36,961 nt of DNA from Candidatus Falkowiibacteriota bacterium (GTDB lineage Bacteria > Patescibacteriota > Patescibacteriia > UBA11705 > JABHMO01): assembly GCA_016214755.1 (NCBI GenBank), contig JACRNX010000043.1, positions 1 to 36,961 on the forward strand, written 5' to 3'. Made by a program: the position numbers and the translations under genes. Positions 116 through 22,278 of the stretch are shown here, piece after piece. Below the pieces are notes generated by a model. The model searched no databases, was not told the origin of the DNA, and was given only the letters and a program-made list of their open reading frames with translations. Every line of letters starts with the position of its first letter. The stretch's first letter is position 1.

Positions 116-328
116 TTAAGATCTGTTTTTCTAAATCCTAAACAAACTCCAATTTCCCAATGTTTTAAATTCCAACATAAAAAAGTATTTGATAAATTGT
201 TTGTCATTTGTTTCGAATTTCGATATTCGGATTTAGAGTTTAAAGTTTAGGATTTCGGATTTCGAATTTGCTTTAAATTAAGATTTAGAATTTTTTTCTA
301 AAAACAAATTACGATTTCTATTTTCATT

Positions 329-1279
329 TTATCTATTGCGAAACCCAATCAATTGCACCTCCTCTTCCAACTGCACGCCAAACTTTTCTCGCACTTTTGT
401 TTTTACTAAATCAATCAGCCGCGCGACATCATCAGCGGACGCGCCGCCGGCGTTAACAACGAAATTCGCGTGCTTGCCGGAAACCATCGCTCCGCCAATT
501 TTTGCTCCTTTGAGCCCAGCTTCTTCGATAAATCGAGCGGCGGGAATTTTTCCGTACTGTTGCCATTCTTTAAAAGGACTTAATTCATCACTATACAAAA
601 CGTTTTTAAACGAACTGCCGGCGCTGGGAAAATCCAGCGGCTGTTTGGCGCGACGTTCGCTGTATTCCCGTTGAATTTGAACTAACTTTTCTGCTGCTTT
701 TTCGTCTTTTTCCAACTTAAACGCCAATTCAGCGATAATCCAATCCTTATGTTTTTTAAAAATACTTTCGCGATAAGCGAATTGGCATTCTTCCTTGTCA
801 AAAATTTTCAGACGGACTTCATCGTCAACGATAATCGCCTCGGCTGATTCGACAAAATCGCCCGCGCCTTTTCCGTACGCGCCGGCATTGCCGAAAACCG
901 CGCCGCCGACTGTTCCCGGGATATTAGCGCCAAACTCCAAACCGCCAAAACCCGCTTCGATTGTTTTTCTGACAAACCCGGCCCAATTATTGCCCGCGAA
1001 AACCGTGATTTGATTTCCTTTAAACTTAACTTCGCCTTCCTGCAATTTTATAACCAACCCGTTAAATCCGCGGTCAGCGATTAACACGTTACTGCCGCCG
1101 CCCAAAATAAAAAACGGCAAATTGAATTTCTTCGCCGCTTGCAATGCTTTAAATAAATTGGCCTTATTATTCACGACAACGAAAAACTTGGCCGGCCCGC
1201 CGATTTTGAATGTCGTGTAATCGCGTAAAGCCACGTTTTCCCTTGCCTCCAAACCAATTTTTTTTAATTCTTCTATCAT
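329..1279 (-). CDS. murB: UDP-N-acetylmuramate dehydrogenase MurB
   Basis: FAD-binding motifs ([40 protein letters not shown]) and C-terminal ANFVVN. Confidence 0.95.
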
Positions 1280-1349
1280 AATTCCATTTTATCAATTTCC
1301 GCAAAAAAATCAATCCTGATCATAGTCGAAGTATCAAATGAATAACCCC

Positions 1350-17193: not shown

Positions 17194-17466
17194 GTGATGT
17201 GGATAATAATTTCACTGGCAATCAGCAATCGGTTAGCGTTGCTAATTATTTACTTGACGACGAACTTCATGGAAAAAGCGTTCAGCGGCTGGTTCTGGCC
17301 GCTGTTGGGCTCGCTCTTCATGCCGTGGACAACTCTCTGGTGCGTCTATGTTCTCAACAACAACGGCTTCACTGACTGGCGGACATTAATTCTCTTTAGC
17401 TGTATAGTCGCTGATTTGGCGCCATATCTAACGGCAATTATGCCGGCAACGCAAACGCGCAAATAA
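17194..17466 (+). CDS. Small membrane protein, hypothetical
   Basis: 90 aa, hydrophobic; SD AAGGAGG; promoter upstream and terminator downstream. Confidence 0.7.
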   Translation: MMWIIISLAISNRLALLIIYLTTNFMEKAFSGWFWPLLGSLFMPWTTLWCVYVLNNNGFTDWRTLILFSCIVADLAPYLTAIMPATQTRK

Positions 17467-20986: not shown

Positions 20987-21067
20987 AATTAATTTATACT
21001 TTTCTGGAATTTATTATACCACAAATAAAGAAATGATGAAATAAAGTTTGGAATTAATAGGCAGTAA

Positions 21068-21141
21068 ATAGAAAGTAGAATCTAGAAAATAGAAAAGCGC
21101 TCTCTAACAAACTTCTATTTTCTATTTTCTACTTTCTAAAT
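21068..21141. repeat. Imperfect inverted repeat made of TAGAAAGTAGAATCTAGAAAATAGAAA-type sequence
   Basis: AATAGAAAGTAGAATCTAGAAAATAGAAA ... TTTCTATTTTCTACTTTCTAAATTC. Confidence 0.6.
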
Positions 21142-21145
21142 TCTG

Positions 21146-21185
21146 TTTAAAATAAAGAAGGGAACCCGTCATGCCGGACTCCCTT
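21146..21185 (-). terminator. Terminator of the large ncRNA
   Basis: Minus strand AAGGGAGTCCG-GCATGA-CGGGTTCCCTT (11 bp incl. 2 wobbles) then CTTTATTTT. Confidence 0.8.
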
Positions 21186-22154
21186 GTTTGTGTGGTTTGC
21201 AGTCGCTATGGCCGCTCTTATTCAGATTGGCCCAGACCCAATACCCAACTGCTTTTACCATCAAAGTAGTGATTAGAAAACTCGCTGGAAACTCTCAAAG
21301 CCATCGCTGACTTTGAGCCCAAACAGACTTTACGGGTAGGCCTAAGCCCTTTTAATGGGAAGACCTCTTACGAGGATCTCCTCACCCAAAATCCGTCTGG
21401 ATTTCTTAAGTTTCCTTTGAATTCCCTCTTCTCTACTTACCGAGAAATTTCATCTGCCTCGCGGCTGAATTACATTTCCCGATCCAGCATCTCTCCTTTG
21501 TCTTCTCGACATTCTTTCTTCAAGTACGACTAATGACGATTTTGGTTCTTCAACGCCTTTGATTTGCCGAACTAACTCGACATGAAGTAAAAGTTTGGAC
21601 TTGCGTCTTTGCTTTCGCTCCTTGCTCTGTTAGTTCCTTGAACCATCGGCTCCAGACCTCAATCAATCATCAATCAACTATTCAAATGACTATCTAAATC
21701 TTTCATTGCCTCTGATTTTCCGAACTGACTCGGCTTGAAACTTGAGTTTGGACTTTCGCCCACTCCCTTGCTTCTCACTTTATCAGTTCTTCCGATCATC
21801 AGCTCCAGATTCAGATTGGCCATCTGTTTGAAGAAAAAACCCTTTCGCTGGCTTGACTCATAATCAAGTTCTGTCTAACCTCTTGACTTTTGAGCTTCAA
21901 GAAAAGTTCCGCCTAACATTTCGATTAAGATTTTTTGACATGTTGCCACGCCCATCATCTCTTTCGTCACGTTAAGTTTCACCTTGCTTGACTCCCTTGG
22001 TCTTAAGGCTAAACTTCCTTCAACTACGAATCGCCCCAGTTACCTTTTGACATTAGAAAAATGTGTTGATGGTGCAAATAGCTGGTTTCGACTAATTTTC
22101 ATAGCCGGCCTTTCTACCTGCCACAGTCTTGTAAAGAGCTTTTCGCGACTGCAA
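21150..22154 (-). ncRNA. Large (~1 kb) structured noncoding RNA candidate
   Basis: Promoter, 10-bp terminal helix (22145-22154 with 21197-21206), internal duplicated domain with compensatory changes, GNRA hairpins, terminator, no long ORF. Confidence 0.88.
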
Positions 22155-22159
22155 TAGCA

Positions 22160-22188
22160 ATGATACACCAATAAAAAAAAGGCGTCAA
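22160..22188 (-). promoter_or_regulatory. Sigma70-type promoter of the large ncRNA
   Basis: Minus strand TTGACG (22188-22183), 17-nt spacer, TATCAT (22165-22160). Confidence 0.8.
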
Positions 22189-22278
22189 ATGCCCCCTGTG
22201 GATAACTTTTACAAGTCAGAAATCGGAAATCAGAGGTCAAAAGTCAGAATTTAAATCCTGTCCCCTAAACGTTTGTTT

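Follow-up and report, generated by a model that had tools for sequence, protein, structure and literature searches.

A putative large structured RNA gene with a duplicated arm and a DnaA-box promoter in a Candidatus Falkowiibacteriota genome

In the 1.09 Mb genome of this bacterium, a deoxynucleoside kinase gene (dNK, PF01712) and a small conserved 123-aa gene without a Pfam match flank an interval that lacks any ORF of at least 80 aa, the longest overlapping sense ORF being 66 aa. Which molecule is encoded there, and what may it do? A first-pass annotation of the window (the whole stretch of DNA analysed, 36,961 nt) had placed in this interval two 108-nt copies of one RNA domain inside a large noncoding RNA, and had taken compensatory base changes between them as evidence for selection on RNA structure. 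Both copies were found on the minus strand exactly where this annotation had put them, and the motifs quoted from them were read correctly.

The RNA gene and its predicted fold

The features collected in Table 1 make a well-supported case, from sequence, for a putative stand-alone structured RNA gene of ~1.0 kb with its own sigma-70-like promoter and terminator. The promoter scan was weak by itself (5 found vs 2.9 expected), but the TTGACG-17-TATCAT promoter and the terminator were accepted because their position and conservation back them. The predicted closing helix P1 joins the two ends of the RNA directly before the terminator. Directly 3′ of the terminator there is an AT-rich near-perfect inverted repeat (window 21056-21145; TAGAAAATAGAAAATAGAA...TTCTATTTTCTAGATTCTA), which gave only chance-level microRNA matches.

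Table 1. Features of the RNA locus, in window coordinates.
Feature	Position	Strand	Basis or remark
Noncoding RNA gene, ~1.0 kb	21158..22154	-	Start inferred from promoter, end from terminator
DnaA-box sequence TTATCCACA, 8 bp upstream of -35	22197..22205	-	Also before the RNA promoter in G001, G002 and G004
-35 hexamer TTGACG	22183..22188	-	Promoter scan
-10 hexamer TATCAT, 17-bp spacer	22160..22165	-	Promoter scan
Closing helix P1, 5′ strand TTGCAGTCGC	22145..22154	-	Folding
Closing helix P1, 3′ strand GCGACTGCAA, 10 perfect pairs	21197..21206	-	Folding
13-nt exact repeat GGCCAATCTGAAT, adjoins copy 1	21809..21821	-	Repeat search
Copy 1 of the 108-nt domain	21702..21809	-	Ungapped alignment to copy 2, own fold
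Copy 2 of the 108-nt domain	21549..21656	-	Ungapped alignment to copy 1, own fold
GGCCAATCTGAAT, second copy, near the RNA 3′ end	21220..21232	-	Repeat search
Intrinsic terminator hairpin, then T-rich tail	21158..21185	-	Sequence

The ~1.0-kb RNA was predicted to fold at -362 kcal/mol (z -15.6; z -17 for the sense strand and -12.9 in further runs), values obtained by a minimum-energy method on a 1-kb RNA, so that the details of the global fold are uncertain. As controls, 14 protein-coding stretches from the window gave z values from +1.4 to -3.3 and 0-1 GNRA/UNCG loops. In the long, branched predicted fold of the RNA, GNRA loops cap six of the ten hairpins (shuffles: mean 0.67, at most 3). Symmetric internal loops of at least 2x2 number 23, compared to 7.9 in shuffles, and 13 of these are all-purine, compared to 3.8. 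Being long, noncoding and more stable than its shuffles, the RNA can be classed loosely as a large structured noncoding RNA.

Two copies of a 108-nt arm

Copies 1 and 2 are identical at 75 of 108 positions in a gap-free alignment, while dinucleotide shuffles of one copy (n=5000) reached a mean of 31 and a maximum of 49 matches. Folded separately, both form the same arm (z -4.5 for copy 1 and -3.2 for copy 2), and their minimum-energy folds have 27 base pairs in common; three of the 30 pairs of copy 1 are lost in copy 2. The fold has been retained although the copies are ~30% diverged: when 33 substitutions of like kind were placed at random in each copy, an average of only 4.7 (copy 1) and 4.3 (copy 2) pairs persisted, compared to the 27 observed (P 0.001 and <1/3000, respectively). 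It is well supported by these comparisons that the two copies are paralogous arms, derived from the internal duplication of one 108-nt arm, and the predicted folds of both arms are robust, unlike the details of the global fold.

Among the 27 common pairs, 16 are unchanged, nine carry one-sided changes and two carry double-sided changes. One of the latter, a change from G-C to A-U in GAACTGAT/GTCAGTTC (alignment columns 26/83), had already been quoted by the first-pass annotation and is a true compensation, whereas the U-G to C-G change quoted with it is one-sided; the second true compensation, again G-C to A-U, is found at columns 43/66. Compensatory changes are indeed present, but their number is not significant by itself (P 0.42; 113/500 shuffles in a separate test). 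A further detail needs correction, as the GNRA hairpin that had been described as standing before the shared GTCCAAACT has its 3′ strand (GTCC) within GTCCAAACT. The one-sided changes are more telling: all nine exchange a G-U wobble for a Watson-Crick pair or vice versa. Such exchanges keep the pairing in the minus-strand RNA and break it in the complement, so the selected molecule is the minus-strand RNA. Folding of the whole RNA likewise gave z -17 for the sense and z -3 for the antisense strand. Together with the retained pairs and the six GNRA hairpins, these observations support selection on RNA structure more strongly than the first-pass annotation was able to.

DnaA-box promoter and units in related genomes

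The sequence TTATCCACA, the consensus DnaA box established in E. coli, adjoins the RNA promoter in the arrangement of a DnaA-controlled promoter, and expression of the RNA is probably tied to DnaA. Two perfect DnaA boxes are present in the window, of which only one lies at the RNA promoter; the other (17198-17206, minus strand) lies where a small plus-strand ORF (17194-17466) begins. The pattern TTATCCACA-N7-10-TTGAC was present in 234 of 380 genomes of the class, compared to 7 for the reversed control pattern. At the class sites inspected, the genes that follow are presumably lexA, mraZ, fur, a ribonucleotide-reductase-like gene, a Y-family polymerase gene, rpoB and 16S rRNA, names that were given by sequence recognition and not by family search. 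Since it also precedes growth, SOS, division, nucleotide and rRNA genes, the DnaA-box promoter appears to be a widespread type of which the RNA is one user. Examples are lexA (L079, L087, L088, L091, L092, L098), mraZ (L047, L081), fur-like genes (L059, L095, L096), a ribonucleotide-reductase-like gene (L048), an rpoB-like gene (L099) and 16S rRNA (L189, L203). At L085/L094 and at L103 (G007) two DnaA-box promoters stand before a common element, AAAAAGGCTTTYGGCNGTGGTTTATANACCACA.

The comparison covered five genomes from the family and ten from the order. When 54 relatives were searched with the RNA by BLASTN, a single weak match (L002) was returned, which was discarded as it lies inside a protein gene. 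A covariance model of the 108-nt domain (R1), run on 10 genomes of the order and on draws of 380 from the class and 380 from the phylum, recovered the two copies and nothing further, and in the candidate relatives it gave only a sub-significant partial match (L051, 16 bits, E 0.065). No match was obtained in viral contigs (searched with one exact pattern), phages and plasmids. A kinase protein search of genome contigs yielded distant kinases only, and a search for the promoter plus 5′ element yielded mostly chance matches and units already known.

Synteny was more informative. In three sister genera of the same family (G001, G002 and G004) the kinase and 123-aa genes flank the same locus, and the gap between them holds a noncoding unit of ~0.65-1.2 kb that starts with a DnaA box and promoter and ends with a strong terminator, with 8, 9 or 17 bp separating TTATCCACA from a downstream -35 box of the TTGAC type. 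The interiors of these units cannot be aligned with the RNA of the window. The syntenic RNAs nevertheless fold better than their shuffles (z -6.6 to -8.6; -4.8 in G004) and carry 10 (G001), 3 (G002) and 5 (G004) GNRA and UNCG hairpins, compared to a mean of at most ~0.5 in shuffles. The energy of the closing helix P1, compared with interior windows, is clear for the RNA of the window and mixed for its relatives, being not significant in several of them (e.g., G002, G004, G286, G144 and G280), which leaves an architecture common to the genera only partly demonstrated. In one genome of a neighbouring family (G005) the kinase and 123-aa genes are 188 nt apart and have no unit between them. Another genome of the family to which the window belongs (G003) also lacks the unit and has a shorter hairpin transcript candidate without a DnaA box. 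As both lack it at this locus, the unit is not indispensable to the order as a whole.

Some further elements were observed at these loci. The candidate RNA of G003 (L031, ~1150-1345, minus strand) lies upstream of the 123-aa gene and has a promoter, ends that can pair (GGTCATGAGC/GCTCATGACC) and a terminator, but no Rfam match. In G004, the space between the RNA unit and the 123-aa gene contains a 42-aa ORF (L029, 611-739, minus strand) that has a separate terminator; it ends in CRQCSGCHGCR and resembles the precursor of a modified peptide or a small protein rich in Cys. In G001, two related membrane-protein genes of ~230 aa separate the kinase gene from the RNA unit (L030, 2213-3616, plus strand).

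A second group of noncoding units (~0.6-1.1 kb) follows DnaA-box promoters in family f25 and one f84 genome (L042, L043, L046, L051, L057, L058, L060, L116 and L187). Homology is clear for several of them: the units of G326 and G365 show 84% identity over 778 nt, or 87% when only aligned bases are counted. By plain count, their two-sequence consensus comprises 188 pairs, none of them broken, with 14 one-sided and three double changes; the consensus fold of the 3′ domain in the G326 group is weak. In pairs of units such as G286/G144 or G262/G326 the 5′ and 3′ ends are common, while the middle differs in both sequence and length. Promoter type, size, terminator and tetraloop enrichment are common to this group and that of the window. 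Both groups also have a weak 5′ element (GNNCNTTGA / GNNCNTTACAAG), and a closing helix is present in some units, not in all. The f25/f84 units are similar to the RNA of the window in promoter type and plan, and may share a common descent with it. Two loci of this group are more complex. L057 (G262) carries tandem noncoding units (~1501-2160 and 2160-2530) between rpoD and tRNA-Asn, the second having a promoter without a DnaA box. In L116 the RNA unit of G365 is closely followed by a group I intron (149-417, minus strand; Rfam, 72 bits), at a place where the tRNA-Asn gene of relatives is uninterrupted.

Function, alternatives and comparison with known RNAs

We consider it fairly probable, taking the whole reading together, that the locus encodes a fast-evolving, stand-alone large structured RNA with a duplicated arm, which is tuned by DnaA and serves as a scaffold in trans. 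Transcription would start at the sigma-70-like promoter and run from ~22154 to 21158 on the minus strand, and DnaA at its box would tune it to the replication or growth state. The RNA would then act as an architectural scaffold, either in an RNA-only assembly or in a protein-binding particle, and such a scaffold would tolerate quick sequence change as well as gain, loss or duplication of arms. Action in trans as a scaffold is suggested by the lack of a conserved neighbour across the two groups and of a repeated exposed motif, and by the fast change of sequence and arm number while an ornate fold is retained, a behaviour reported for OLE, ROOL and GOLLD. A broader proposal remains tentative, and we would sooner doubt than adopt it: this bacterial class may harbour a group of hypervariable giant RNA scaffolds with DnaA-box promoters like those of cell-division, SOS, nucleotide and rRNA genes, in which only promoter, ends and overall architecture are conserved, arms turn over by gain, loss and duplication, and the dose is set by the replication initiator.

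Several other explanations were weighed. The duplicated arms, together with CAAGGGAGT (three occurrences in the ~1.0-kb RNA) and GGCCAATCTGAAT (two), would suit a regulatory sponge or antisense RNA in which unpaired repeats act as binding sites for a protein or for other RNAs, more of which come with the additional arm. GGA motifs are CsrA-type sites. They are not enriched in the RNA (18 vs 24.5 in shuffles) and none lies in a hairpin loop, which speaks against a CsrB/RsmZ-like sponge; besides, the motifs that recur in it are not kept in the syntenic RNAs and ~2/3 of the RNA is paired in its predicted fold, making this function unlikely. That the RNA is a relic or diverged version of some known catalytic or housekeeping RNA (RNase P, tmRNA, group I/II intron or 6S RNA) which escapes the models is suggested by size and compactness, which resemble those of catalytic RNAs, and by GNRA and purine internal loops, which are typical of RNAs with tertiary contacts. 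However, the ~1.0-kb RNA had no Rfam match at the gathering threshold and only chance-level matches at a relaxed one, though the same scan detects the group I intron of L116. The RNase P RNA of this genome is found elsewhere (G000:C1:14110-14447), with no RF00010 match in the window, and neither ARAGORN nor Rfam reported a tRNA or tmRNA there. Further arguments against an intron are the separate promoter and terminator and the absence of an interrupted host gene. We regard such an origin as quite improbable.

The perfect DnaA box occupies the same place in all four genera, as would be expected if the conserved element were the DNA, i.e., a site for DnaA titration or replication control, and the RNA a by-product. 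This seems very unlikely, as there is one box at the site, the sign of the GC skew is constant across the window (which also argues against a replication origin in it), and fold retention with G-U exchanges is evidence at the RNA level. Finally, the arms could be alike merely through the short time elapsed since a duplication in non-functional spacer, in line with the finding of the 108-nt domain in no other genome searched. A divergence of 30% with 27 pairs kept where ~5 are expected, z values of about -13 to -17, tetraloop enrichment, and the presence of a promoter and terminator make this hardly credible.

Few large structured RNAs are known from bacteria and most of them lack an explanation; the present one belongs to a bacterium with a tiny genome. 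Sequence searches miss it because it evolves so fast, and its relatives are linked only by synteny and the DnaA-box promoter, a route that could uncover many more such RNAs. The duplicated arm offers a natural experiment on the growth of large RNAs, and its promoter hints that a giant RNA may be connected with the state of replication or growth.

Group I and II introns are large RNAs with GNRA loops, and the RNA of the window resembles them in these two respects. A second parallel is CcnA, the cell-cycle noncoding RNA of Caulobacter, with 182 nt and a location at the replication origin (PMC8959179). In both cases the control region of a noncoding RNA points to cell-cycle or replication regulators, whereas the RNA described here is ~1 kb long and the window has no sign of an origin.

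The closest comparison is with OLE, ROOL and GOLLD, long bacterial noncoding RNAs with extensive stems and poorly conserved sequences (PMC12286853). Covariance models gave no match that would place the RNA among OLE, ROOL, GOLLD, HEARO or raiA, and the candidate relatives likewise matched none of the Rfam large-RNA models. It differs from OLE, ROOL and GOLLD in its host group, its DnaA-box promoter and the lack of an Rfam match, and in an interior that cannot be aligned even between genera of one family. A-minor contacts have been reported for RNAs of the OLE/ROOL/GOLLD type (PMC12286853), and the GNRA and purine internal loops of the ~1.0-kb RNA would suit such contacts. The formation of homo-oligomeric RNA particles characterises the three known RNAs, and the RNA of the window is probably a trans-acting scaffold comparable to OLE, ROOL and GOLLD while not being one of them.
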